A DNA stretch of 37,515 nucleotides from a virus. The position numbers were made by a program, and so were the translations under genes. Location: positions 1 to 37,515 of the IMG/VR virus record IMGVR_UViG_3300025132_000113; one strand, written 5' to 3'. The notes under the pieces are model-generated. The model was not told where the DNA came from. It searched no databases and worked only from the letters and a program-made list of their open reading frames with translations. Below, one piece after another: positions 17,414 through 32,454 of this stretch (position 1 is its first letter; each line of letters begins with the position of its first letter).

Positions 17414-19050
17414 TGTTGTTCTTCAGTAGGTTGAGGTTGAGCCATTTCTTGACTCGTAGCAGCAGCATTAGCCAACTTTTGAGGGTCAGCCATGCCCGAC
17501 TGCATTGCTTGTTGCATCATTGCTTGTTGTTGTGCTTGCTCTTGCTCTTGTGCAATCTGTTCTTCAGTCTTAATAAGACCGTTTAACTCCATGCCCATAG
17601 ATGATGCAAGCCTTCTAATCAATTCGCTAGTGTCAACAAACGTACCTATTCCTTCAGGGCCAATTGTTTGTTGAAGTATTTGCATAAATCTTGCAGTTTT
17701 CTCAAGGTCGTTTGATCTGCCTAACGCTCTTAAACCAACTGATATAACTGGCTTAACAAGGTCATTAGGTAGCGTTGGAAGCTTGCCTCTTCTTGTTAGT
17801 AATACAAGCTTTCTTGCAATGTATGGACGGACAAGTTCTTGTGAAAGTATTGAGAATACAGACCCCAATGAGGCTTCAATTTCGTTGATCAAAATTCTGT
17901 TTTCTTCCGCAGTAACCCTCTCCGCATCTCTTGGAGAATGAAGCATGAAACTTTTTGAAAGCCTTGCTTCTACTGTTGCCAAGCTCTGAAGAGCCACCTG
18001 CATGTCGTTACCTTTATCGGTTCTGATCGTAAAGACATCATCAGGATTACCAGCTAGATATGCACCATTAGCTGCCTCTGCCAGCTTCTTAGGATTAACA
18101 ACACTACTAGGTTTAACAAGGTGTTTAGTCTGTGCTGCGATTAATGCACCTTCTGTGATGGCCTGACTTAAGGCTTCTGCTGTTCTTAAATCAGCTAGGC
18201 ATACAGCTTCTATATATGAAGGCGAATAACTTTCGCTATCCGTCCTATACATCCTTAATGGCAAGAATGGACTCTCATCTTTCGGTGCTGATCCTCTTTG
18301 TCCCTCAACCTCTACCCCTTTAACTTCTTGATACCAGTGAACTTTATTGTTCTCCCAATAAACATGTGTATAAACTTCAATGTTTTTCTGGTAATCAGGA
18401 GATTCTTCCCCTGGGATTACTCCTTTAATTTCACCATCTTCATCAACAAGCATTTGCTTTACTGCTTCTGGCAAAGCCTGATAACCAATCTTTTCACAGA
18501 TCACACATTCAAGAGGGTTGCCAATAGCATCTCTCTTTAGAACATATTTCCTCATCGGAAAACATTTCAGCCCATCTTTCTCTATATAAATAAGGGCGTT
18601 TCCATAGACCACTAAATGAGTTAATGCCTCTTGAATCGCTAGTCGGTCATTGGAAGTTTCAACATCATTCAATACAACTCTTTCTAACCTTGCTAACCCT
18701 AAATCAAATTCAGTTTTCTGTTTCGCTAGTTCTTCTGGTTGTGCGCCTGCTTGCAGCATTTGTTGTTGCTGCGTTGCCAGTTTTATTTCATCAATTGTCA
18801 ATCTAAATATCTGTTCTGTTGGAGGTAGTAATGATAAAAGTAATTTGGCAACAATTGTCTGGACACCTTTCTGGCCTACTCCATTCCAAGGATTTCGTTG
18901 AATGGAATTATCTCTTTGACCAAAGCCATCATCTCTAACGAGATAAGGCAGAGTAAAACTTGCACAGGTGTCACCTTTCTCAACTTGTGCATTGCGTTCT
19001 GATTCGAGCGCTTTATATGTGGCAGCGCAATTGCCTGTTCGTAGTTTCAT
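17410..19050 (-). CDS. Portal (head-tail connector) protein, gp8-like (546 aa)
   Basis: Dodecameric portal at the packaging vertex; T7 gp8 is 536 aa. Recognisable blocks: GDTCASFTLPYLVRDD near residue 30, NPWNGVGQKGVQTIVAKLLLSLLPP (residues about 53-77), ALTHLVVYGNALIYIE, and SKSFMLHSPRDAERVTAEENRILINEIEASLGSVFSILSQEL in the second half, the standard portal signature. The C-terminus is glutamine-rich (EQEQAQQQAMMQQAMQ), as is common in this family. It abuts the upstream 158-aa gene and overlaps the scaffold by 4 bases. Confidence 0.95.
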   Translation of the reverse strand: MKLRTGNCAATYKALESERNAQVEKGDTCASFTLPYLVRDDGFGQRDNSIQRNPWNGVGQKGVQTIVAKLLLSLLPPTEQIFRLTIDEIKLATQQQQMLQAGAQPEELAKQKTEFDLGLARLERVVLNDVETSNDRLAIQEALTHLVVYGNALIYIEKDGLKCFPMRKYVLKRDAIGNPLECVICEKIGYQALPEAVKQMLVDEDGEIKGVIPGEESPDYQKNIEVYTHVYWENNKVHWYQEVKGVEVEGQRGSAPKDESPFLPLRMYRTDSESYSPSYIEAVCLADLRTAEALSQAITEGALIAAQTKHLVKPSSVVNPKKLAEAANGAYLAGNPDDVFTIRTDKGNDMQVALQSLATVEARLSKSFMLHSPRDAERVTAEENRILINEIEASLGSVFSILSQELVRPYIARKLVLLTRRGKLPTLPNDLVKPVISVGLRALGRSNDLEKTARFMQILQQTIGPEGIGTFVDTSELIRRLASSMGMELNGLIKTEEQIAQEQEQAQQQAMMQQAMQSGMADPQKLANAAATSQEMAQPQPTEEQQ

Positions 19051-22699: not shown

Positions 22700-23073
22700 T
22701 AGTAAGTTACCTGTAAATGAATGTACGAGTCTTTAGGTTTAGTTTTACTCCATATCCAAACGCCATGAGGCATGATACTTACTCGGTCATCAGACCAAAT
22801 AATACCTTTGCCAGCATCTAAGACAGCGCCACATAAGTTATCGCCGTCATGTCTTGCAGGGCCACCGAAATGGAGGGTAACTTGTTTAACCCTTTCTAAG
22901 GGAGGTGCAGTCCACCACTCCCTCATTTGTGCCTTTAAATCTGCCTGCCATTGTTTATATTCTTTGGACATATATGGAGGCATAGGCTTACCATTTTTCA
23001 CACCAAAGCGAGGTCTTTCTTTACTCTTTAAAGGAACATAAAAAGTAAATTCTGCGACACTATCTTTAATCAA
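22699..23073 (-). CDS. rusA: RusA-type Holliday junction resolvase (124 aa)
   Basis: Dimeric endonuclease resolving four-way junctions. E. coli RusA is 120 aa. Motifs: FYVPLKSKERPRFGVKNGKP near the N-terminus (residues about 11-30), then ARHDGDNLCGAVLDAGKGIIWSDDRV with the acidic set Asp76, Asp78, Asn79, Asp86, Asp95, Asp96, matching the family's D-x-D-N...LD...W-x-DD layout. T7 uses gp3 (endonuclease I) instead, so a RusA family enzyme is a replacement of that function. Overlaps SSB by 4 bases. Confidence 0.92.
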   Translation of the reverse strand: MIKDSVAEFTFYVPLKSKERPRFGVKNGKPMPPYMSKEYKQWQADLKAQMREWWTAPPLERVKQVTLHFGGPARHDGDNLCGAVLDAGKGIIWSDDRVSIMPHGVWIWSKTKPKDSYIHLQVTY

Positions 23074-23702
23074 AATGGAATGTCCTCTTGATTAACTTTG
23101 TTGAGTTGTTCCTGAACATTGGAAGAGTCAACATTCAATGAAGATGGTGTGCCTACTGCTTCAAAGTCTGTTTCTTTATCAGCAAATTCTTCATCAACGC
23201 TAAAGATGTTTGCGTCAGGATCATATTCAACGTGCTTAAGAACTTGAACCCCTTTAAGAAACAAGCCAACACCACATCCACCTTGATCGTAAGGAAAAAT
23301 AGTAAAGGAAATTCTAATGATGCTGCCATTGCCAATAAGCTTTTCTTGATCCCAAGGTCTTAGGTTTGCATCAACTACTTTTGGTGCGCCTAATGGTTCT
23401 CCATTACGACTTAGTTCTTTTCTTTTAAATTTGAATTTGATATAGCCAGTTAGCTGTAATTCTCCTTTGTCATCAGTAAAAGATTCAGGCTCATAAGGAA
23501 GTCCATGTGCTGCTGGCTTCTTTTTGCCATGCGCTTCTGTAAAAGCATTATCAATTGATTTTTGTAGATGCTTGCAGTCCTCTGGCTTGAAGCGCTGACC
23601 GATTGTGTATTCTCTTTGACCGTTAAATTGATTGAGCCTTGGTTCACCCAATACGCAAGCAAAGACTGATTCTCCTTTTGGAGTAGTCATTGACTGTGGC
23701 AT
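23070..23702 (-). CDS. Single-stranded DNA-binding protein, gp2.5/DUF2815-like (210 aa)
   Basis: Probable phage SSB. The body has beta-rich segments with basic and aromatic residues (ELQLTGYIKFKFKRKE, NGSIIRISFTIFPYDQGGCGVGLFLKGVQVLKHV), typical of the T7 gp2.5/DUF2815 group. The C-terminus is acidic and ends QEDIPF, the classic SSB tail used to recruit partners. First gene of the DNA metabolism block; its 60-bp upstream gap contains both a motif 1 half-dyad (23708-23721) and an exact CTCCTA/TAGGAG operator (23737-23752). The ATG at 23702 lies 5 bases from motif 1. Confidence 0.85.
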   Translation of the reverse strand: MPQSMTTPKGESVFACVLGEPRLNQFNGQREYTIGQRFKPEDCKHLQKSIDNAFTEAHGKKKPAAHGLPYEPESFTDDKGELQLTGYIKFKFKRKELSRNGEPLGAPKVVDANLRPWDQEKLIGNGSIIRISFTIFPYDQGGCGVGLFLKGVQVLKHVEYDPDANIFSVDEEFADKETDFEAVGTPSSLNVDSSNVQEQLNKVNQEDIPF

Positions 23703-23721: not shown

Positions 23722-23736
23722 AGGTTTTAACCATAA

Positions 23737-23752
23737 CTCCTAGGATTAGGAG
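23737..23752. promoter_or_regulatory. Motif 2 operator-like dyad, before SSB operon
   Basis: CTCCTA-GGAT-TAGGAG, a perfect 6+4+6 inverted repeat, identical in both arms to the one at 27883-27898. It lies between the RNA polymerase stop and the SSB start. Probable binding site of a dimeric winged-helix regulator. Confidence 0.6.
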
Positions 23753-23762
23753 ACGCAAGCCC

Positions 23763-26180
23763 CTAGGAATAAGCGTATGGGTTCTCTCCAGGTCTTAGAC
23801 ACGAAATGGTTTTCTGTACTGGTGGGCCATCTATATTCTTGATACCAGTGTTAGCAATGATTTCACTCCTTATCTTCTTTAGCCACCTTGTCTTGAATGT
23901 AACTTCTAGTTGCTTTAGAAGTATCTTATGTAACTCTTCAGCGTCAGTTGGGATGGTTGCAAAACAGTCATGGTTTGTAAGGATTTGAATATTTAATTCT
24001 CTACATGTGGAGACTACTTGGAGACATATTGCAGCATCAAAGCTAGTGATAGTGTTAGCCATTATTGAACGCTTAGTAATTCGAGCAGAAAACAGATCTT
24101 TATTTTCGTATTCGTTCCAAGGTGTCCATCTCCTTTTACCTCTTGTTAATGAGTGAACGCTCTTTCTTGGGTCAATCTCATCACCCAATTCAATAGGCCA
24201 ACCAACAGGTGAAGTCCATTTAATTTTTTTGTTCTGTTCTAATACTTGTTTGGCAACTAGCTTCAACCATTTCTGCAATCTGAAGCTTGAGTTTAAATAA
24301 TTATCCAATGACAATTTAATTATCTTTGCCAAGTAACAGGCTGGAGAAAGGTAATGATGTTGCCAGTCATAAACCATTTTGCCTGGGGCTTTCTCTTCTA
24401 ATCTTGCAACTAAATAATCTACAAGCCCTAAGTATTGCGCCCCATATATTGCAGTCATACAGGGGAGTTTCATTAACGATCTATCTATCCCATATTCAAG
24501 CCAAAGTTCTGCAAATTTCTTCTTGGTCGGATTGCTTTGTAGATCCTTAGTAACTTCCAAGTGAACATGATCAGCAACGACTTGATATAGATCGCTCTTT
24601 CTATCACCAACACAATTTGTCCAAGCCGCCAATCTATAATCTCCAGTCAACATGCTTGAGATTGCAACACCACTACAACATTGATCTAATCTGATTGGAC
24701 ATTTAGAAATGCTATTTGGATTGTCGATCTGTTCTTTAACAGCCCTGCACAGTTGTAGATATTGCCACTTATCTTTTGCATCTCTCCATAACTCAAGACG
24801 GTCTAACGGCGCTTCTGCTACCGCACACATCTGTTTAATATGATCTTCTCCCCACTTATGTCTTTTAATCCATAGATCATTGATTCCATAGTGTCCTGCT
24901 GCTGCTATTAATAACCATGAAAAACCTTCTTCACTACAGCGTTTACCCTTAGCAAAATTAATACAAGCCTTAGACCAATCTGGCCCTTGATGTGTTGCAA
25001 GTTTATTCAATGTGTAGATTCTTCCTCTTTGATCTGCGAAATATTGGTTGTAAACAGTACGTCCTGCGACCTCTTCTAATTCCCTTATGTCTTGTTCAAT
25101 TTTATTTCTAATTGCTGCACCATTGTTGCGATCTTTTTGTGCGGCCCATCTCTCTTTTACATAATTTTTATATGCTTCTGATCCTATATGTTCTGTTGGT
25201 GCTACAGGCTCTTCTTTGGGGTCACGTTGGACTGGAAATAACCCACGAATATTGCAGTCCCACGCAGTTCTCATATCACCCACCATCGGTCTGTCGATTT
25301 CTACTGCTTGATCCTCTAAGTAGTGGGCTGGTTTTTTAATTACCCTTAGATCTCTCTCAGTGATGTAACTAATATCATTTCTTGATCTTATAAATGGCTT
25401 GTTCTCTCCTCGCCTATACATTGTCCAACAAGGCTTAGGCTTGATTAATAAAGGCAGCCTTCTTACTGGTGTTGGCTTTGGTGGGTTCCTTTTAATAATT
25501 TCTTGAGTAGCTTCTGTTGCATCAACAATTGTTTTGATCTTTCCCTTGTTACTTAAAGGCAAGATCTCAATCAGATTTGTATGAGCAACAATGACCTGAA
25601 GTAATAATCCTCCGACTTCTTTCTGCTGAATAGTTGTCCAACGTTCATCCTCAATCCGTAGCTGCTGCAATATTCTTTTGTTACTTAAAGCTTTTGGCCC
25701 CTTCTTTTTCTTGATTAAACGCATCAAGTGAGGGTTCATCTTCTCAACTTTCCCTGCCCTTAACTCATCCTCTAATGCTCGGCCTATCCCTTTAGCTAAA
25801 TCATTTTCATAAGGTCTAGAGCTAATGGTGTCTAGCACCACACTTAAAGCAATTGAAGATATAGTTCTTGGCCCTCTATTTGTTACATGTAAAAGCAAAG
25901 GCCATGCTGCAAAATGTGGCCCAGGTTTATGTGGATTTTCTAGAAGATCTTCTAATAATATTCCTAAACCAATTGATATTTTTTCAGCGTTCTCATTAAA
26001 CAAAACTCTTCCATACTCAGTAACACTTTCATTGCCCTGAGCTTTTAATTTTGCTCGGTCATTAATTGCTTTCCATTTAGCATTTTCTTTCTCCCTAGCC
26101 TCACGTTTTTTCTGAAGCGAAATGGTTTCAGTGGATGGAAAATTTGCGTTGTATTCCCCCTTTTTTCCCCCTTTTTCCAT
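23763..26180 (-). CDS. Single-subunit T7-type DNA-directed RNA polymerase (805 aa)
   Basis: Transcribes the phage genome from phage promoters. All catalytic landmarks are present: motif A RLDQCCSG with Asp499; motif B RSLMKLPCMTAIYG with Arg567, Lys571 and Tyr579, at the same spacing as T7 Arg627, Lys631, Tyr639; motif C NHDCFATIP with His737 and Asp738. The protein ends PYAYS, matching the aromatic C-terminal foot (FAFA in T7). T7 RNAP is 883 aa; the N-terminal domain is shorter here. The ATG at 26180 immediately follows the stop of a 67-aa ORF and has no Shine-Dalgarno, suggesting coupling. It lies between the integrase/tRNA and the SSB operon, so its expression sets the onset of the whole left arm. 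Confidence 0.97.
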   Translation of the reverse strand: MEKGGKKGEYNANFPSTETISLQKKREAREKENAKWKAINDRAKLKAQGNESVTEYGRVLFNENAEKISIGLGILLEDLLENPHKPGPHFAAWPLLLHVTNRGPRTISSIALSVVLDTISSRPYENDLAKGIGRALEDELRAGKVEKMNPHLMRLIKKKKGPKALSNKRILQQLRIEDERWTTIQQKEVGGLLLQVIVAHTNLIEILPLSNKGKIKTIVDATEATQEIIKRNPPKPTPVRRLPLLIKPKPCWTMYRRGENKPFIRSRNDISYITERDLRVIKKPAHYLEDQAVEIDRPMVGDMRTAWDCNIRGLFPVQRDPKEEPVAPTEHIGSEAYKNYVKERWAAQKDRNNGAAIRNKIEQDIRELEEVAGRTVYNQYFADQRGRIYTLNKLATHQGPDWSKACINFAKGKRCSEEGFSWLLIAAAGHYGINDLWIKRHKWGEDHIKQMCAVAEAPLDRLELWRDAKDKWQYLQLCRAVKEQIDNPNSISKCPIRLDQCCSGVAISSMLTGDYRLAAWTNCVGDRKSDLYQVVADHVHLEVTKDLQSNPTKKKFAELWLEYGIDRSLMKLPCMTAIYGAQYLGLVDYLVARLEEKAPGKMVYDWQHHYLSPACYLAKIIKLSLDNYLNSSFRLQKWLKLVAKQVLEQNKKIKWTSPVGWPIELGDEIDPRKSVHSLTRGKRRWTPWNEYENKDLFSARITKRSIMANTITSFDAAICLQVVSTCRELNIQILTNHDCFATIPTDAEELHKILLKQLEVTFKTRWLKKIRSEIIANTGIKNIDGPPVQKTISCLRPGENPYAYS

Positions 26181-26384
26181 CTATTTACTCTGTACCTGTG
26201 TATCGCCTTTATTTTCCCCCGAAACACTAGGTTTTAGAACTACTTTGCACTGGTGGAATGGTCGCCAACGGATTTTAAGTCTGGTGGTTTCATCAAGAAC
26301 ACTGACTGGTACTAAAGGGCTTTCATTGTTTTGATTGTAGATCATGGTGTAAAAAGTGCAAAAATTTGGTCTTGGTAGACGCAT
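26181..26384 (-). CDS. Possible small protein coupled to the RNA polymerase (67 aa)
   Basis: ATG at 26384 (MRLPRPNF) to a TAG whose last base touches the polymerase ATG. The sequence looks protein-like (SPLVPVSVLDETTRLKIRWRPFHQCKVVLKPSV) and fills a gap that is otherwise unexplained. Against it: no clear Shine-Dalgarno and no family recognised. If it is not a gene, the stretch is the leader of the polymerase. Confidence 0.5.
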   Translation of the reverse strand: MRLPRPNFCTFYTMIYNQNNESPLVPVSVLDETTRLKIRWRPFHQCKVVLKPSVSGENKGDTQVQSK

Positions 26385-26400
26385 GATTGTGTGCAAGTTC

Positions 26401-26416
26401 CACCTAGGGTTATAGG
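26401..26416. promoter_or_regulatory. Imperfect motif 2 dyad between tRNA-Leu and RNA polymerase
   Basis: CACCTAGGGTTATAGG: the arms CCTA and TAGG are kept, but the spacer is 6 rather than 4 bases. A degraded TGCA/TGCG element (26382-26396, minus TTGCACACAATCATGCG) lies next to it. Together they sit at the head of the polymerase unit, 17 bases before the tRNA. Confidence 0.35.
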
Positions 26417-26432
26417 ATTGTAAAAACCACTT

Positions 26433-26518
26433 GCCAGCGTGGTGGAATTGGTAGACACACAGGACTTAAAATCCTGAGATGCGCAAGCATCGTACGAGTT
26501 CAAGTCTCGTCGCTGGTA
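26433..26518 (+). tRNA. tRNA-Leu, anticodon UAA
   Basis: An 86-base gene with a complete cloverleaf: acceptor GCCAGCG (26433-26439) pairs with CGCTGGT (26511-26517, one G-U) and discriminator A is at 26518. The anticodon stem-loop is CAGGA-CTTAAAA-TCCTG, reading UAA, which decodes leucine codon UUA. The long variable arm (ATGCGCAAGCAT) is typical of tRNA-Leu, and the T arm ACGAG-TTCAAGT-CTCGT is present. CCA is not encoded and there is no intron, although many cyanobacterial tRNA-Leu(UAA) genes carry a group I intron. The integrase stop codon begins at the very next base. It probably doubles as the attachment site (next entry). Confidence 0.93.
26475..26518. other. Candidate phage attachment site (attP) in the 3' half of tRNA-Leu
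   Basis: Integrases of this type recombine in the 3' half of tRNA genes and lie next to attP. Here the integrase stop touches the tRNA 3' end. P-SSP7 is reported to carry a 42-bp match to its host's tRNA-Leu downstream of its integrase. The exact crossover cannot be set without a host genome; the limits given cover the 3' end from the anticodon stem onwards. Confidence 0.5.
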
Positions 26519-27526
26519 TTAGTTCTCAAGAGCATCAATACAATCACTCAAGGCTATTGTATTTGTATGTAGATAAACTTGCACCGCCGCAAGGCTTTTC
26601 CATCCTCCAAATTGTTTGATTTTTAATAATTGAACACCTTTCTTTGCCAATTTTGTGGCGCAAGTATGCCTAGTGCAATGCCAAGTCAATCGCTTGTCAT
26701 CTTCGATGCCCATTTCTCTTTTAACTTCTTTAATTAATCTTCTTAAAATGTTGTAAGTAATCTCATCTCTCCATACATAATCATCCTTTCTCTTTCCTTC
26801 TATCCAAGGCTTAATCGCTTTATACGCTCTATTTGTCATAGGAACAGTTCGAGGTTCTCCATTCTTTGATTTATAGATAAGCACTTCTTTAGTTTTTAAA
26901 TTTACATGTTTAACTTTTACCCTTAAAGATTCTCCCCACCTCGTACACATATCTAATGACCATTTGAATAGATCAACTAACTGTATGTAACCGCAATCAG
27001 TCCAGTATTGAATAAAAAAAGCTTCTTCATCTTCTTCAAAACATCTCTTAGGTCTTTTTACATCTTTTAAAAATGGTGGTAATACTGGATATTCTTTTAA
27101 ATGACCAAAGGTAATGGCAGCGCCAATCATTCCTTTTAAATAAGTTTGTTTCTTATTAACTGTTGTCGGTTGCTTGTCCTCAGATAATTGATCTTCTCTG
27201 AAATCCTGCCATTGGTTTGCATCAATATCTTTTAATAAAAAATCCTCGCCAAAGAATCTAATAATTTGATTGCTTCCATGCATACAAGCATCGGATGAAG
27301 CAAGGTCTTTCCATACTGTTCTCTCTGCTAACTTCTGCGCCTCACCTAAAGTTATATGCAGTTTTACTTGTCGTGTTTGTTTAGCTTTTTTCTTAAATAA
27401 CTCATTAAATTCTTTTTGCTTTGCAAGTGCATCTTGCTTTGTCTTGCAACTTGTTTGCCTTCTAGCGCCATTGATAGTGACATCAACGATATAGCCCTTC
27501 TGGGCTTTGCGGATAGTTCCTAGCAT
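26519..27526 (-). CDS. int: Tyrosine site-specific recombinase (integrase, 335 aa)
   Basis: Catalyses phage integration and excision. Catalytic residues appear in order: Arg196 (DMCTRWGES), Lys219 (IYKSKNGEPRTVPM), His283 and Arg286 (TWHCTRHTC), Trp309 (FGGWKS) and Tyr318 (VYLHTNT). The N-terminal half contains the arm-binding region (residues 1-55) and the core-binding SAM-like domain (about 80-150). The gene is minus strand with its end against tRNA-Leu. Its leader carries the repeat GGTTGGTGGTTGTTG (27537-27551), shared with the ArdC leader. Complete, with no sign of decay. Confidence 0.95.
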   Translation of the reverse strand: MLGTIRKAQKGYIVDVTINGARRQTSCKTKQDALAKQKEFNELFKKKAKQTRQVKLHITLGEAQKLAERTVWKDLASSDACMHGSNQIIRFFGEDFLLKDIDANQWQDFREDQLSEDKQPTTVNKKQTYLKGMIGAAITFGHLKEYPVLPPFLKDVKRPKRCFEEDEEAFFIQYWTDCGYIQLVDLFKWSLDMCTRWGESLRVKVKHVNLKTKEVLIYKSKNGEPRTVPMTNRAYKAIKPWIEGKRKDDYVWRDEITYNILRRLIKEVKREMGIEDDKRLTWHCTRHTCATKLAKKGVQLLKIKQFGGWKSLAAVQVYLHTNTIALSDCIDALEN

Positions 27527-27536
27527 GATTCAGTTT

Positions 27537-27551
27537 GGTTGGTGGTTGTTG
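27537..27551 (-). repeat. Motif 3 leader repeat upstream of integrase
   Basis: GGTTGGTGGTTGTTG on plus (minus CAACAACCACCAACC), 10 bases before the integrase ATG. An 18-base exact match including three upstream T/G bases exists at 32437-32454; variants lie at 29838 and 31132. Confidence 0.6.
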
Positions 27552-27552
27552 T

Positions 27553-27870
27553 TTAAATTTTGTCGAGCTGGCGTTTTAATGCTTTGCCTTTAGGTTTTAG
27601 CCAAACACAAAAGCGTCGGCCTTCTTCTGGGTCAGGTTGAACTTCTAATAATTCAAAGCCTTTATATCCTTTTCTATGAGTTTCGCCTAAAGCATTAATA
27701 GTTCTGCTCACTGTTGAATTAGTCAGGTTTAATGCCTCTTCTATCTCTGAATAGGTGCATCCCTCGTTCTGACAAACAAAGATAAACACCTGAACATGAT
27801 GTAGCGGCATCCCTGTCGGATTAATAGTGGCAAAGGCTTCAAGACCTTTCTCCAATTCAAATAAATCCAT
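27553..27870 (-). CDS. MarR-like winged-helix regulator (105 aa)
   Basis: Probable DNA-binding repressor or activator of the lysis/integration switch. The core (residues 22-100) is a winged-helix domain: MPLHHVQVFIFVCQNEGCTYSEIEEALNLTNSTVSRTINALGE is helix 1, then the helix-turn-helix with recognition helix NSTVSRTINAL, then a beta wing around LLEVQPDPEEGRRFCVWL and a final helix. It resembles the 115-aa protein upstream, and the two look like diverged paralogues. Its own leader contains an exact motif 2 dyad (27883-27898) and a motif 1 dyad (27901-27914), suggesting autoregulation. AGGAGG, part of motif 2, is 12 bases from the ATG. Confidence 0.8.
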   Translation of the reverse strand: MDLFELEKGLEAFATINPTGMPLHHVQVFIFVCQNEGCTYSEIEEALNLTNSTVSRTINALGETHRKGYKGFELLEVQPDPEEGRRFCVWLKPKGKALKRQLDKI

Positions 27871-27882
27871 CCGTTGTAGTGC

Positions 27883-27898
27883 CTCCTACCCCTAGGAG
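27883..27898. promoter_or_regulatory. Motif 2 operator-like dyad before the 105-aa regulator
   Basis: CTCCTA-CCCC-TAGGAG, a perfect inverted repeat with the same arms as the site at 23737. It lies between motif 1 (27901) and the start codon, a position suited to blocking transcription or translation. Confidence 0.65.
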
Positions 27899-27900
27899 AT

Positions 27901-27914
27901 ATGCAGCTTTGCAG
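27901..27914 (-). promoter_or_regulatory. Motif 1 dyad before the 105-aa regulator
   Basis: Plus ATGCA-GCTT-TGCAG; minus CTGCAAAGCTGCAT, preceded on the minus strand by GGTTAAATTTGAT. Adjacent to the motif 2 dyad. Confidence 0.5.
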
Positions 27915-28095
27915 ATCAAATTTAACCTGCTTTTGTACCTTGTGTCCATTGCTTAATTTTTTGAAAACTTTTTGAAAACCATATGAGGCATGGAGAATAA
28001 ACTCCTTGTAGCCACTTTCAAGAGGTATGGTAACGCTCAGTAAAAGCTCTCTTTCCATTCGATTGTTTGCGAAGTTCGTTTATTCCTAAGTGCGT

Positions 28096-28111
28096 CGCCT
28101 ATCCCTAGGAA
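28096..28111. promoter_or_regulatory. Motif 2 operator-like dyad (variant) between winged-helix genes
   Basis: CGCCTA-TCCC-TAGGAA: inner arms CCTA/TAGG and the 4-base spacer are kept; outer bases differ by one in each arm from CTCCTA/TAGGAG. Confidence 0.45.
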
Positions 28112-28134
28112 ACAAGAACGTTATTACAATACAT

Positions 28135-28148
28135 CTGCACCTATACAA
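28135..28148 (-). promoter_or_regulatory. Motif 1 (degenerate) downstream of the 115-aa regulator
   Basis: Plus CTGCA-CCTA-TACAA; minus TTGTATAGGTGCAG, close to the 20540 site (CTGCATAGTTGCAG). Preceded on the minus strand by the AT-rich TTCTATA. Confidence 0.4.
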
Positions 28149-28158
28149 TATAGAACAG

Positions 28159-28506
28159 CTAGTCTGACAAATAGTTACCAATTAGGTCTTTTCCTACATC
28201 GGTAAGTATCAATTGATAGCCTCGTTTATGTGGGTGTTCCCTTCGTTGTATTAATGGTTCACCTCCTTGATTAATCCATTTCCCCTTGCTGTACCTACCT
28301 CTTCCTGATAGGTAATGAATTACTCTTGTAACTGTTGTAAGAGGCATAGATTCACCTCTTTCATTAAGCATTATCGAAGTCAAATCAGAGATGTTATCAA
28401 CACCTGAAGCGACAAACAACAATGCCTCCACCTGTGTAGTAGTGATTATTTTATTTCTTTTCCTGAACTCACTTAGAAAAGAGGCAAATTTAAAAGTGTC
28501 ATTCAT
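28159..28506 (-). CDS. Winged-helix regulator, paralogue of the 105-aa protein (115 aa)
   Basis: Has the same fold order as its neighbour: TTTQVEALLFVASGVDNISDLTSIML, a recognition helix LTTVTRVIHYLSG, a basic wing (GGEPLIQRREHPHKRGYQLIL) and the closing helix TDVGKDLIGNYLS. The two proteins align across their length, with an extra 12-residue insertion (GRGRYSKGKWIN) here. Likely DNA-binding. ATG overlaps the stop of the upstream gene by 4 bases, so it belongs to the small-gene operon that begins with ArdC. Confidence 0.78.
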   Translation of the reverse strand: MNDTFKFASFLSEFRKRNKIITTTQVEALLFVASGVDNISDLTSIMLNERGESMPLTTVTRVIHYLSGRGRYSKGKWINQGGEPLIQRREHPHKRGYQLILTDVGKDLIGNYLSD

Positions 28507-28655
28507 TTTTTAACCTCCTTTGCTTGTGGTTTTCTTTTGGGTTTCGTTGCTAGACCTCGTTCTGGACTGGATTCCATTAATTTAACCAGCTTTTCTAAGG
28601 CATTTGCACACCTGTTGAGATCAATTTCAGCATCAGATTTAAAGACTCTTTGCAT
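28503..28655 (-). CDS. Small basic protein (50 aa), start corrected
   Basis: Starts at ATG 28655 (MQRVFKSDAEIDLNRC), which has a strong GGAGGAGGAAG Shine-Dalgarno directly upstream; a longer frame to 28703 lacks one. A helix (RCANALEKLVKLMES) is followed by a very basic tail (KPKRKPQAKEVKK). It overlaps both neighbours. Function unknown; small basic proteins in such blocks often target host enzymes, but nothing here shows which. Confidence 0.7.
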   Translation of the reverse strand: MQRVFKSDAEIDLNRCANALEKLVKLMESSPERGLATKPKRKPQAKEVKK

Positions 28656-28923
28656 CTTCCTCCTCCTTAGATATTTCAATCCATAGCTCTTTGTTTTCAG
28701 CATGAATCAAGACGTGATTAAGCGCTTTCGCTATCGTTTCTTGATTCTCTTTTAATTGTTTAAGTAATTTAAAAAGTGTCTTTACCTCTTGCGTTAAGCT
28801 ACTCATCCTTTGGGCAAAGGTAGCTAACGCCTCCATCACGTTTAATCTATCCCCTTGAGATAGTTGCCTAGCCCTCGCTAACTCGTAGCCGAGATCATCA
28901 AAATCTATTTTATCTTTAGTCAT
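28639..28923 (-). CDS. Small helical protein (94 aa), unknown
   Basis: Almost entirely predicted helix and coiled coil: LNVMEALATFAQRMSSLTQEVKTLFKLLKQLKENQETIAKALNHVL. Possibly oligomeric. The ATG overlaps the stop of the 45-aa gene (ATGA) and it has an AAAGGAGGTTAA ribosome site. No family recognised. Confidence 0.75.
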   Translation of the reverse strand: MTKDKIDFDDLGYELARARQLSQGDRLNVMEALATFAQRMSSLTQEVKTLFKLLKQLKENQETIAKALNHVLIHAENKELWIEISKEEEDAKSL

Positions 28924-29057
28924 TTAACCTCCTTTAATGGTTCTGGGAATTGGTCAGTTAGATGATGAAACCATGCGTCCTCCTGAGCCGCATAAATAGC
29001 GGCTTTATCAGGATCAGGTAAGTTGATTTCTTCTATTCGTAATTGATTCTTATCCAT
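28920..29057 (-). CDS. Micro-protein (45 aa), unknown
   Basis: MDKNQLRIEEINLPDPDKAAIYAAQED begins it and it ends QFPEPLKEVK. Start ATG 29057 is preceded by GGAGGTTTGCA and overlaps the stop of the 82-aa gene by 8 bases. The stop overlaps the next ATG (ATGA). Acidic and hydrophilic. Supported by position and ribosome site rather than by homology. Confidence 0.7.
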   Translation of the reverse strand: MDKNQLRIEEINLPDPDKAAIYAAQEDAWFHHLTDQFPEPLKEVK

Positions 29058-29298
29058 TGCAAACCTCCTGTAACTTTTGAACTGTATTAATCATTTTTAG
29101 TTGATCACTTTTTATCTTTTTATATAACTTGTTTACTTTCTTTACTGCGCTGTATCCATGCTCATTTGTTTCTTTTAGTTCCTTTAAACCGTAGTTTTTG
29201 CTGACTAGATCACAATAATATTTAAGGAAAGCTAATTCACTTAAATTCATTTCAAGGATGCCTGTTTTCTTATCAAGCATTTCATCAAGATTTGGCAT
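29050..29298 (-). CDS. Small protein (82 aa), unknown
   Basis: Helical and lysine-rich, with MNLSELAFLKYYCDLVSKNYGLKEL in the middle and VNKLYKKIKSDQLKMINTVQKLQEV toward the end. A good Shine-Dalgarno (TTGGAGGAC) precedes the ATG at 29298. Overlaps the 54-aa gene upstream by 14 bases and the 45-aa gene downstream. Confidence 0.75.
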   Translation of the reverse strand: MPNLDEMLDKKTGILEMNLSELAFLKYYCDLVSKNYGLKELKETNEHGYSAVKKVNKLYKKIKSDQLKMINTVQKLQEVCNG

Positions 29299-29449
29299 GA
29301 GAGTTTGTCCTCCAATAGTTAATTAGTTTGGTTAATTCATCTATTCGCTTTTGCGCTAGATAAATCTTTTCTTTAGTAGTGTTATTTATTTTATTAATCC
29401 AATTAGTTCTAACTGGATAATAAACATTTTGAATAGGATGATGTACCAT
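29285..29449 (-). CDS. Micro-protein (54 aa), unknown
   Basis: Begins MVHHPIQNVYYPVRTNWINKIN and ends in a basic helix (IYLAQKRIDELTKLINYWR). It fills an otherwise empty gap in the operon, keeps the operon's overlap pattern (14 bases with the next gene), and a GGTGAG element lies upstream at the end of the 117-aa gene. Not recognised. Confidence 0.6.
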   Translation of the reverse strand: MVHHPIQNVYYPVRTNWINKINNTTKEKIYLAQKRIDELTKLINYWRTNSHAKS

Positions 29450-29473
29450 TATTAATTAAGTGTTACTCACCTG

Positions 29474-29827
29474 TTAAAGTACCTCATATTTATATAAATT
29501 AGCAGCCATGTCACCATGCGCTAAATCAACATTTTTTGTCTTTAGTTCTTCTTCTGTAAACTCTTTATAATAACCAATACTACCTCCAACATAACGACGA
29601 GTCTCCATAGGATTTCTTTCCCTTGCATATAAATAATATTTACATGCAAATGTATTAAGTTCGCCGCTTGCATGAGTAGGAATCAATGTAAGTTTTTCAA
29701 CATTGTACTTTTTACTTTTAGTCCTTCTGCCTACTTCTAAAATCATTTCTCTTTTACTGTAAGTATCATGAATACTTGCCTTAATCCTTTGCTTATACTT
29801 AAGCTTTAAGAACTGCTCATAGTCCAT
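29474..29827 (-). CDS. Protein of unknown function (117 aa)
   Basis: Very basic and tyrosine-rich (QRIKASIHDTYSKREMILEVGRRTKSKKYNVEKLTLIP, then YYLYARERNPMETRRYVGGSIGYY). A compact beta-rich fold is likely. Its leader holds a variant of motif 3 (29838-29852) 11 bases before the ATG, and a hairpin lies further upstream. Not recognised. Confidence 0.72.
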   Translation of the reverse strand: MDYEQFLKLKYKQRIKASIHDTYSKREMILEVGRRTKSKKYNVEKLTLIPTHASGELNTFACKYYLYARERNPMETRRYVGGSIGYYKEFTEEELKTKNVDLAHGDMAANLYKYEVL

Positions 29828-29837
29828 AATTTACCTC

Positions 29838-29852
29838 GGTTGATGGTTGTTG
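29838..29852 (-). repeat. Motif 3 leader repeat (one mismatch) upstream of the 117-aa gene
   Basis: GGTTGATGGTTGTTG on plus, one base different from the integrase copy. Located between the hairpin at 29878 and the ATG at 29827. Confidence 0.5.
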
Positions 29853-29877
29853 AATAGATGACATTTAAGCCATCCAT

Positions 29878-29902
29878 GAAGCCCACTGATTAAGAAGGCT
29901 TC
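29878..29902 (-). terminator. Hairpin between 86-aa and 117-aa genes
   Basis: GAAGCC (29878-29883) / GGCTTC (29897-29902), 6-bp perfect stem with a 13-base loop, just after the stop of the 86-aa gene. No T-run follows on the minus strand, so it is a weak terminator or an mRNA-processing hairpin. Confidence 0.4.
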
Positions 29903-29911
29903 AGGGATAGA

Positions 29912-30172
29912 TTAATTAACTTCGTATCTTTCTAAATATGCTTTCTTTTCTTGTTCTCTATCTTTTACAATCTGTTTATAAAAATCTATTTGTTCATCCA
30001 TTAAAGTTAGCTTTCTAATTTGTGTTTTATAATCATTTTCTTTTGCTCTTTCTAGATCGTTATAAGTACAAACAATATCATCATCGGCTTTATCTCCTAG
30101 GGATGACCACGCCTTCTCAGCCCTTTTTAAGGCTGAGTTAAAGCGTTCTTTATATGTATTAGTTTTATTCAT
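29912..30172 (-). CDS. Small coiled-coil protein (86 aa), unknown
   Basis: Highly charged: KERFNSALKRAEKAWSSLGDKADDDI, then a helix KENDYKTQIRKLTLMDEQIDFYKQIVKDREQEKKAYLERYE. Its ATG directly follows the ArdC stop. Probably co-expressed with ArdC. No domain recognised. Confidence 0.75.
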   Translation of the reverse strand: MNKTNTYKERFNSALKRAEKAWSSLGDKADDDIVCTYNDLERAKENDYKTQIRKLTLMDEQIDFYKQIVKDREQEKKAYLERYEVN

Positions 30173-31117
30173 TTACTTCACCTCACTTCCTAAGATTCTA
30201 TTTACTGCGCTTGTAGCCTTTCCTAGTGCTTTCATTAAGTACTTAGGATCTTGTCTAAGTGAACTAATCCAACTGTTTAAATAAGCCGCATGGTTAGTTG
30301 TATTAGAACTAATTTGTAACCGATGACATATAAGAAAAGCGCCAAGTTCAGCAACTAATTCCTCTTTTGCATATTCACTACTTCCAAAGCTTGCAGGCTT
30401 TAATCTCTTAAGCCTTGATTCATGGCCTGTACTGTGAACCATTTCATGAAACCAAGTTGCATATAAAGCCTCAGAATTATCAAATAACCTTCTCTCAGGC
30501 ATGTTGATTTGATCTCTAGAAGGCTTGTAGCAAGCTCTACTGCCCATCCAAAGTGTTTCTAGCTTCTCTTGCTTGTGATATGCCTTAGCAGCATTTTCAC
30601 AGTCCTCTAAGCGCTTTGGTTCCTCATTCCTAGCCTGTTCTTCTCCTAGTGCTTTCTTTATCATTTCCTGAAGTCCTTCACCTTCAAAGCAAGAGACATG
30701 GAAAACAGGACAAGGCTTATAGCTAGTCCATGCTGCAATTTCAGGATTACCATCATTGTCTAGCTTTGGCTTTCCATCCTTTCCTTCTATCTCTCTTGCA
30801 TTTAGTTGAGGTCTAGTTATATAAACTGCTTTACTTCCTTTCTTAATCGTTAGACCTGCCTTGATACCTTGATTTCCTCCCAACCATAAAGACTCCTCAT
30901 AATTCCTAGCCATTGCGTACATTTCAAGCAATGCCACGTTGCCACCATGATAAAAATTACCAGTGATTAGATTCTGATGTCTTCCATCATTCTTGCTAAC
31001 CCATTCTTTACGCCAAGGATTCTTACCTTTCTCCATTAACTCAATCAATTCATTACAAAGCTTTTCTTCTGGTGAAGGCTTAGTAGTTGCCTTCTTAGTT
31101 CGTTCTTTAGTAGCCAT
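30173..31117 (-). CDS. ArdC-type antirestriction/zincin protein (314 aa, start corrected)
   Basis: ArdC proteins protect incoming DNA against restriction. The N-terminal ssDNA-binding domain is shown by NPWRKEWVSKNDGRHQNLITGNFYHGGN (about 33-60) and the YITRPQ/TSYKPCPVFHVSCFEGEG segment, and the C-terminal metallopeptidase by TWFHEMVHSTGHESRL with HEMVH at 224-228 and a third ligand at Glu257 (KEELVAELGA). Start is placed at ATG 31117 (MATKERTKK): the frame stays open to 31204, but that stretch contains motif 1 and motif 3 and is not protein-like. First gene of the minus-strand early operon, which suits a function needed right after DNA entry. Confidence 0.88.
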   Translation of the reverse strand: MATKERTKKATTKPSPEEKLCNELIELMEKGKNPWRKEWVSKNDGRHQNLITGNFYHGGNVALLEMYAMARNYEESLWLGGNQGIKAGLTIKKGSKAVYITRPQLNAREIEGKDGKPKLDNDGNPEIAAWTSYKPCPVFHVSCFEGEGLQEMIKKALGEEQARNEEPKRLEDCENAAKAYHKQEKLETLWMGSRACYKPSRDQINMPERRLFDNSEALYATWFHEMVHSTGHESRLKRLKPASFGSSEYAKEELVAELGAFLICHRLQISSNTTNHAAYLNSWISSLRQDPKYLMKALGKATSAVNRILGSEVK

Positions 31118-31131
31118 AAGACTTAATTGAT

Positions 31132-31146
31132 CGTTGGTGGTTGTTG
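31132..31146 (-). repeat. Motif 3 leader repeat upstream of ArdC
   Basis: CGTTGGTGGTTGTTG on plus, one base different from the integrase copy, 14 bases before the ArdC ATG and next to a motif 1 dyad. Confidence 0.5.
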
Positions 31147-31148
31147 TT

Positions 31149-31167
31149 CTGCACTGGTGTTGTGCAG
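31149..31167 (-). promoter_or_regulatory. Motif 1 variant (long spacer) before ArdC
   Basis: CTGCAC-TGGTGTT-GTGCAG, a 6-bp inverted repeat with a 7-base spacer. On the minus strand it is preceded by GATAATAATAAGAACA, similar to the GATAA/ATAAAG box at 1281 and 15298. Likely the early promoter region of the ArdC operon. Confidence 0.5.
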
Positions 31168-31362
31168 TGTTCTTATTATTATCACTAATGACCACCGATG
31201 GCAAGTAAAGGGATTAGGCAAACTCTCTATCTGTAACAAATGTCACACCCTTTACCTCTACTCTCCACCCCTTCACACTTCACCACGTCCACCCTTCACA
31301 CCCCTTTTAGTTGCACACCAGATTGATAGTCTTGTGGTTATTCAGTCAGTCACTAGATAGAT

Positions 31363-31455
31363 ATACCCCACCCCACCCCATAGCTATTTTTTTATTGATT
31401 CTTTTGATCTTTTTTTTATTTTTCTATGATTTTTTAAAGGGGGCTATGGGGGTAT
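31363..31455. repeat. Large inverted repeat with T-rich loop, candidate origin
   Basis: Left arm ATACCCC (31363-31369) and CCCCATAGC (31376-31384); right arm GCTATGGGGGTAT (31443-31455), which matches the left arm if 5-6 of the repeated C/A bases loop out. The 58-base loop is almost pure T/A on plus. Easily melted DNA framed by GC-rich arms, near a RepL-like gene, is origin-like, but this is inference. Confidence 0.4.
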
Positions 31456-31516
31456 GAGCGCCAAGCGCTGTAGAGGTACCCACCTAAAAATGCGAGGTAA
31501 AAAATGGAAAAAAAAA

Positions 31517-31545
31517 GACCCAGGGCATTATGCGAACCCTGAGTC
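31517..31545. terminator. Bidirectional intrinsic terminator
   Basis: Nine-bp stem GACCCAGGG (31517-31525) / CCCTGAGTC (31537-31545) with one weak pair and an 11-base loop. It is flanked by an A-run (31508-31516, a T-run on minus) and a T-run on plus (31549-31554), so it can stop transcription both ways. It would insulate the divergent ArdC and RepL-like units. Confidence 0.75.
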
Positions 31546-31692
31546 AGATTTTTTGTGTGTGAGGAGTTTAAGTTGTATTGTTTTTTCTGCGTTAGTAGGT
31601 TGGGGCGTACCTACGTTTTTATTGTTACCAGTATAGAGATCATAGTGCAAGTAGGAGTAGATAATTGTGGGAGTAGTTGAAATGCAGGTGTG

Positions 31693-31722
31693 TTGATGTA
31701 TGATTCACTTTACCAATATAAG
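31693..31722 (+). promoter_or_regulatory. Sigma70-like promoter of the plus arm
   Basis: TTGATG (31693-31698), an 18-base spacer, then TATAAG (31717-31722). It would give a leader of about 85 bases with a hairpin (CTGACTGG ... CCAATCAG) and the motif 2 dyad. A host-read promoter here would let the RepL-like gene be expressed before phage polymerase exists. Confidence 0.45.
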
Positions 31723-31768
31723 ATCCCCTCCCCTGACTGGGCCGTTTCGCAAACACCAATCAGGAGTG

Positions 31769-31784
31769 ACCCTAGGGTTAGGGG
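31769..31784. promoter_or_regulatory. Motif 2 operator-like dyad (variant) before the RepL-like gene
   Basis: ACCCTA-GGGT-TAGGGG keeps the CCTA-N4-TAGG core of the 23737 and 27883 sites. Positioned in the leader, between the putative promoter and the ribosome site AAGGAGG. Confidence 0.5.
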
Positions 31785-31813: not shown

Positions 31814-32188
31814 ATGCAGTCTAATGGATTCGAGAATTTTGTTATGCTTCACCAAGAAGAATTTGAGAATGTATTTGGGTTAATAAGTGAGAGGCGATTG
31901 GAGTTAAGGGATATGGCTGTGTATGTGGGATTAATCAGTGAAATGAACTGGAGGACGGGGAGAGTTAGGTTAACTGCTAGGGCATTAGCGAGGAAATTGA
32001 ATATCAAAGATTCTGTATGTGTTATGTCGTTGGGAAGGTTAAAGAAGGAGTTGTTAGTTGTGAGGGTGAGGGAAAAAAGGAGTGGGGATGTTTATTTTTT
32101 ATTGAATCCACATTTTGCGAGTGTGGGAGGAGTAAAGAGGCGAGGATATTTACAAAGTCAATTTGAGGAGGCAATAAACGATTTGTGA
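31814..32188 (+). CDS. RepL-like winged-helix protein (124 aa)
   Basis: First gene of the plus arm. The ATG at 31814 has a strong AAGGAGG site 8 bases upstream. The middle is a winged helix: MAVYVGLISEMNWRTGRVRLTARALARKLNIKDSVCVMSLGRLKKELLVVRV, where a helix-turn-helix (LTARALARKLNI, then SVCVMSLGRLKKE) precedes a two-strand wing ending YFLLNPHFASVGG. That final 'yflNPh' block is reminiscent of RepL-type plasmid replication proteins. A transcription regulator is an equal alternative. Guanine-rich codon use (GGG, AGG, GTG, GAG) is visibly unlike the left arm. Overlaps the next gene by 4 bases (GTGA). Confidence 0.7.
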   Translation: MQSNGFENFVMLHQEEFENVFGLISERRLELRDMAVYVGLISEMNWRTGRVRLTARALARKLNIKDSVCVMSLGRLKKELLVVRVREKRSGDVYFLLNPHFASVGGVKRRGYLQSQFEEAINDL

Positions 32189-32391: not shown

Positions 32392-32439
32392 AATGAAAAT
32401 GCTTTTCCAGGTGGTACTGGGAAGCCTGCCAGCCATTTT

Positions 32440-32454
32440 GGTTGGTGGTTGTTG
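32440..32454. repeat. Motif 3 repeat in the plus arm
   Basis: GGTTGGTGGTTGTTG, identical to the integrase leader copy (18 bases match including the preceding TTT). Here it lies between plus-strand genes, not directly before a minus-strand start. Confidence 0.55.

Follow-up and report, generated by a model that had tools for sequence, protein, structure and literature searches.

The MarR-integrase operon of phage LUZ100 has a proposed role in the lysis/lysogeny decision, with sites hypothesised around the promoter of the polymerase (PMC10134795). The study of phage S-TIP37 reports integration without stable lysogeny and no recognisable repressors (PMC8776855). The paper on Synechococcus phage S-SRP02 names a MarR gene and leaves operators and promoters unmentioned (PMC8790148). 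Here, we address the question of dormancy in integrase-bearing T7-like cyanophages, and of its agent, through a set of short DNA dyads in the IMG/VR record IMGVR_UViG_3300025132_000113, a complete record of 37,515 bases that is referred to as the window. On comparative sequence grounds, the dyads are probably operators of a 105-amino-acid (105-aa) MarR-like protein encoded at 27553-27870, which would repress itself, together with the integrase, and a host-driven promoter of replication genes. The sites, the promoter of the single-stranded DNA-binding protein (SSB) unit, and the protein are located in the window as follows.

23737-23752, no strand: putative operator O2 (site A), CTCCTAGGATTAGGAG; an exact dyad that fills the spacer between the -35 and -10 hexamers of the SSB promoter; aligned in near relatives.
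23760-23769, no strand: putative operator O1, CCCCTAGGAA, with CCTAGG at 23762-23767; just upstream of the -35 hexamer, overlapping the RNA polymerase stop codon.
27883-27898, no strand: putative operator C1, an exact dyad; core CCTAGG at -26 from the 105-aa MarR-like gene.
28096-28111, no strand: putative operator C2, with two mismatches; core at 28104-28109; upstream of an overlapping open reading frame (ORF) and of the MarR and integrase genes.
31769-31784, no strand: putative operator D, with three mismatches; core at 31771-31776, in the leader of a 124-aa gene.
26401-26416, no strand: candidate operator, core at 26403-26408, between tRNA-Leu and the RNA polymerase unit; identical in near relatives.
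23730-23758, minus strand: sigma70-like promoter of the SSB unit; -35 TTGCGT (23758-23753), spacer of 17 base pairs (bp), -10 TATGGT (23735-23730).
27553-27870, minus strand: 105-aa MarR-like winged-helix protein (MarR1), the proposed repressor; recognition helix at about residues 51-61 (NSTVSRTINAL); Pfam MarR_2, PHROG 9665.

The core CCTAGG is conserved across the phage family at the same three places. The family sample comprises 139 loci, of which 107 are distinct, from IMG/VR, GTDB genomes and phage records. All 64 six-bp palindromes were counted without bias in the distinct loci at three homologous places and three control places. CCTAGG is the top palindrome upstream of orthologues of the 105-aa gene (46/78 loci, background 1.0), after the RNA polymerase stop codon (60/97 loci, background 1.8), and in the 110 bp upstream of orthologues of the 124-aa gene (23/41, background 1.1). 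At the control places, namely ahead of the integrase, behind SSB and ahead of the terminase, it does not reach the top six palindromes. Among loci with one or more sites, which number 71, there are 342 copies of CCTAGG, 205 of them within the three places that make up 1.2% of the sequence; the resulting 127-fold density relative to the rest is somewhat inflated, as these loci were picked for carrying a site. The MarR site begins 26 bases before the ATG in 29 loci, including the window and S-SRP02, and a second cluster of CCTAGG at -185 to -239 upstream of the MarR gene matches the site at 28096. The S-SRP02 genome contains seven copies of CCTAGG. Five are at the three places (13599 before MarR, 18908 and 18931 after the polymerase, 10058 and 10072 before the orthologue of the 124-aa gene), and a sixth (13440) is the counterpart of the second cluster. 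We regard the dyads, from this comparative evidence, as real, conserved control sites.

An earlier note on this DNA had listed exact copies of CTCCTA-N4-TAGGAG at 23737-23752 and 27883-27898, variants at 28096 and 31769, and a longer-spaced site at 26401. All of them are present, the last as CCTAGG with a spaced TAGG at 26403; the list was incomplete, as the CCTAGG at 23762-23767 had been overlooked. The placing of every site in a gap holds except at 27883, which is inside a conserved small ORF on the minus strand (27741-28058). A perfect 6-4-6 dyad with recurring arms arises in 10.5% of 200 resampled sequences, and in 1% when the arms are at least half G+C; the recurrence is unusual, not extreme. 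The loose pattern, with up to three mismatches, is not in excess (12 found, 13.5 expected by chance), and the weak sites therefore stand on their conservation. When oriented, the sites read CCTAGG[GA]N-TAGG (CCTAGGRWTAGGMGAC), a pattern taken from the same sites on which it was counted (5 found, 1.0 expected, 0 of 100 shuffles). Since the oriented sites share CCTAGG, two bases and TAGG, their spacer is constrained, and not free as had been claimed. The gaps of near relatives have diverged around the sites, which stand out as islands of identity, and in one of these relatives (G001) both arms of site A are altered jointly (CGCCTAGG...GGCG).

The symmetry of the site extends beyond its core. In a set of 195 distinct sites, the flanks of CCTAGG, taken three bases deep on either side, are complementary beyond composition, with p values of about 0.0025, 0.0005 and 0.002 that are optimistic because related sequences are not independent, and the effect stops there. 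Complementary flanks at positions 1-3 are a property that a dimer site requires. The dyad symmetry is consistent with a dimeric binder, the protein having been modelled as a single chain only. On this evidence, the conserved operator unit is the palindrome ACWCCTAGGWGT with the core CCTAGG; it is extended to CTCCTAGGRWTAGGMG in the window, whose 16-bp dyads are an oriented elaboration specific to its lineage. The conservation of the dyads in relatives supports the earlier proposal of a single dimeric regulator with three locations for its sites: the integration operon, the junction of polymerase and SSB, and the divergent early gene. The earlier reading is partly supported: it was largely right, and its conserved unit needs redefinition.

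The sites after the polymerase gene are built into a promoter-like sequence. The commonest arrangement in the gap between the polymerase and SSB genes is two CCTAGG 23 bp apart (27 pairs). O1 is the upstream member of the pair in the window, with its core at 23762 located 23 bp from that at 23739, and the spacing in S-SRP02 is equal. TTG precedes CCTAGG by 13 bases in 22 loci and by 14 bases in 12 others; most of the 22 also have TA...T 23 bases past TTG. This spacing points to a sigma70-type promoter whose 17-bp spacer contains the operator. In the window, the spacer holds the entire dyad at 23737-23752, and the TTGCGT-17-TATGGT promoter is kept in the window and in all six of its near relatives. 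The claim that the regulator governs the phage polymerase stands only in part. The 23737 site instead falls within the putative SSB promoter, which follows the polymerase gene on the minus strand. The site upstream of the polymerase at 26403 has counterparts in two sister loci (L112 and L033) and is otherwise confined to the lineage of the window, not family-wide.

The 105-aa protein matches Pfam MarR_2 with 29.9 bits (cutoff 27). Its AlphaFold model has a mean predicted local distance difference test score (pLDDT) of 90.7, the best Foldseek matches of the model are MarR-family regulators, and the best PDB match is MarR bound to operator DNA (5h3r). The protein is thus predicted to have a MarR-type winged-helix fold. 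The palindrome in the own leader that marks the MarR family would be the CCTAGG at -26. Recognition helices of the N[SG].VSR type in the 105-aa protein accompany CCTAGG. Loci of the NASVSRT clade carry ACTAGT at the MarR site, and their SSB gap contains repeats of the CTAG type; CCTAGG is absent from 24 of the 25 members of the clade with the helix NA[SGA][AV]SR[IC] (NASASR/NAAVSR). In the comparison that the earlier note had suggested, dyad and recognition helix change together, though with few independent changes. A motif for the clades without CCTAGG was sought by eye, and none was established. In one locus of such a clade (L139), a palindrome TTTCTTTA-GT-TAAAGAAA is located about 45-25 bp upstream of the MarR gene and is a possible operator of that clade.

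We hypothesize that a dimer of the 105-aa protein recognises ACWCCTAGGWGT, in the window in its extended form. At O1 and O2, the dimer would cover the region from -35 to -10 of the host sigma70 promoter between the RNA polymerase and SSB genes, and its occupancy would block host-driven expression of SSB and the replication genes. At C1 and C2, it would restrain its own operon, integrase included, and at D the divergent unit leading to the terminase. With the repressor absent or overwhelmed, the promoters would open and the lytic programme would run. The positions, conservation and symmetry of the sites, their overlap with promoter-like hexamers, and the linkage of site and helix are observed; that the protein binds, that it represses and does not activate, and that it acts in lysogeny, we infer.

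Several observations weigh against this proposal. The locus L016, with the helix NASASRI, carries CCTAGG by its MarR gene, and loci with NASVSRG/N retain CCTAGG, whereas those with NASVSRT do not. The linkage of helix and site rests on about three to four label changes on the tree, and shared ancestry could therefore mimic it. An argument from sequence fits a repressor and an activator alike, and no sigma70 promoter was established at operator D or C1. C1 is within the overlapping ORF, and its conservation could in part reflect coding. Of 300 Pro-Arg pairs elsewhere in these loci, just 11 use CCTAGG, and copies of the core are present in the non-coding gap between the polymerase and SSB genes. 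A DNA-level constraint is therefore the better explanation, and we reject coding constraint as the main cause of C1.

Every locus with enough sequence has two winged-helix genes; the second one in the window is located as follows.

28159-28506, minus strand: 115-aa second winged-helix protein (MarR2), with a hypervariable recognition helix; PHROG 9665.

Between the window and its relatives G002 and G003, amino-acid changes concentrate in the recognition helix of the 115-aa protein (10-11 of 14 residues), the remainder being conserved, and the pattern looks like a DNA-specificity switch. The two proteins may form a two-repressor switch, in which the family-wide operators of MarR1 would gate host-driven replication genes behind the phage polymerase and MarR2, its helix divergent even among close relatives, would set a fast-changing specificity, for example of the superinfection-immunity type; we regard this possibility as rather unlikely. 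Some MarR proteins activate transcription. It is improbable that the 105-aa protein works as an activator when bound to the sites, or acts differently from site to site: the leader sites D and C1 have no tie to a mapped promoter, but O1 and O2 span -35 to -10 around an ordinary 17-bp spacer, which is the classical arrangement for repression.

Slightly less credible still is that the sites are bound by the 115-aa protein, alone or as a heterodimer, although it is related to the 105-aa protein and is as widespread as the latter. Among the loci with CCTAGG, the 105-aa protein varies less in its recognition helix (0.92 bits) than over its whole length (1.38 bits), whereas the 115-aa protein has a hypervariable helix (2.23 vs 1.81 bits). 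The window and G002 have operators in common, but their 115-aa helices are identical at 4/14 residues, compared with 71/92 elsewhere in the protein. A helix that is free to change next to constant sites makes the 115-aa protein a poor candidate, and by these comparisons the binder is very probably the 105-aa protein.

The sites lie behind the polymerase gene and ahead of further units, positions at which T7-like phages have phage promoters, and they take an oriented form in the window. That they are promoters of the phage RNA polymerase is nevertheless very improbable. The family-wide core is symmetric, site A (23737) is oriented against the genes, and O2 sits within a host-type promoter. The sites are present at three places only, with none in late-gene gaps, and a separate motif of the CTGCA-N5-TGCAG type is located upstream of SSB and several late genes. 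The least probable reading is that the sites act in RNA, as a hairpin, a terminator or a means of ribosome-site sequestration, or are kept as coding sequence. In its favour, the 16-bp dyads are able to fold, and C1 covers a Shine-Dalgarno-like TAGGAGG and overlaps the conserved ORF. Against it, the folding is no better than that of shuffles (z -0.2 to -1.0), no T run is found behind the dyads, the arms vary without consistent RNA pairing, and the Pro-Arg codon use and non-coding copies given above speak against coding.

The gene context of the sites is as follows. The window belongs to an integrase-bearing T7-like phage that encodes a T7-type RNA polymerase, a Gp2.5-like SSB, a RusA resolvase, a tyrosine integrase, an ArdC-like protein and a T7-type terminase, as assigned by Pfam and PHROG. 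Its close relatives are other IMG/VR contigs. The nearest isolate found is S-SRP02, with identities of 59% for MarR and 45% for the polymerase; a megablast search of the region against phage records gave no match.

23070-23702, minus strand: Gp2.5-like SSB, the first gene behind O1/O2; phrog_112.
23763-26180, minus strand: single-subunit T7-type RNA polymerase; PF00940, 7e-50.
26432-26519, plus strand: tRNA-Leu (TAA) beside the integrase; probable attachment-site remnant.
26519-27526, minus strand: tyrosine integrase, adjoining the MarR gene; Pfam Phage_integrase.
27741-28058, minus strand: conserved ORF without annotation that begins before the MarR gene, overlaps its start in a different frame and contains C1.
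31814-32188, plus strand: 124-aa protein behind operator D, without a known family.

The ORF at 27741-28058 has the motif L.ASI.IP.GQ...LY.E...LHRCQTPRSRR and no PHROG match, and related ORFs precede MarR in most loci. A 71-aa ORF on the minus strand (26181-26396), between the tRNA and the RNA polymerase gene, also lacks a PHROG match and is very strongly conserved in near relatives. An Rfam scan returned the tRNA as its sole match. The label RepL-like, which the 124-aa gene had been given, finds no backing in Pfam or PHROG, neither of which gave a family match at E 0.01. A conserved hairpin-like leader (31725-31770) is located upstream of the operators and the 124-aa gene, and the D operators follow it. 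In other clades, including those without CCTAGG, this leader reads ACTGGG...CCAG.

Near-palindromic motifs of the CTGCA-N5-TGCAG type are found at 1282, 15299, 16476, 20541, 23709, 28136, 31149 and 34748. They occupy gaps ahead of SSB, capsid and other late genes, and S-SRP02 has counterparts at 18954, 28436 and 21. The motif is a candidate promoter of the phage RNA polymerase. Repeats of GTTGGTGGTTGTTG at 27531-27551, 29832-29852, 31133-31147 and 32434-32454 stand directly before several start codons (the minus strand reads CAACAACCACCAAC) and in one plus-strand gap, and are possibly a translation or promoter element.

An article by Boeckman et al. in Virology (2022) reportedly was the first to propose MarR sites in temperate T7-like phages, and may already mention some of the sites described here. 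The papers searched, which did not include that article, contain no operator sequence, and a text search for the operator string gave nothing relevant. The regulator, its operator and the promoter to be closed can now be named as candidates, and the set is conserved in dozens of phages, one of them cultured (S-SRP02). The idea is testable with a single protein and a few short DNA duplexes, and the helix-operator pairs (CCTAGG, ACTAGT) are a natural series for studying recognition.

Our finding is a specific, testable variant of the already proposed MarR switch. The window has the MarR-like gene beside the tyrosine integrase, the tRNA attachment region and the T7-type RNA polymerase. It resembles LUZ100 in the MarR-like gene directly upstream of the integrase, the tRNA-Leu near the integrase, and the T7-type RNA polymerase that follows (PMC10134795). 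The sites proposed there for LUZ100 flank the promoter upstream of the RNA polymerase, whereas the family-wide sites are located after the polymerase, in the SSB promoter, and in the leaders of MarR and of the divergent gene. S-TIP37 is likewise a T7-like cyanophage with an integrase (PMC8776855), but the lineage of the window, a different one, carries a candidate repressor and a conserved operator set. The 105-aa protein resembles E. coli MarR (PDB 5h3r) in its winged-helix fold, the palindrome in its own leader, and sites overlapping promoter hexamers; it differs in its length of only 105 aa, the CCTAGG core, the lack of a known ligand, and its phage operon with the integrase. S-SRP02 has the same order of MarR, integrase and polymerase genes and the same operators as the window (PMC8790148), with sites of the symmetric form ACTCCTAGGAGT in S-SRP02 and of the 16-bp form in the window.

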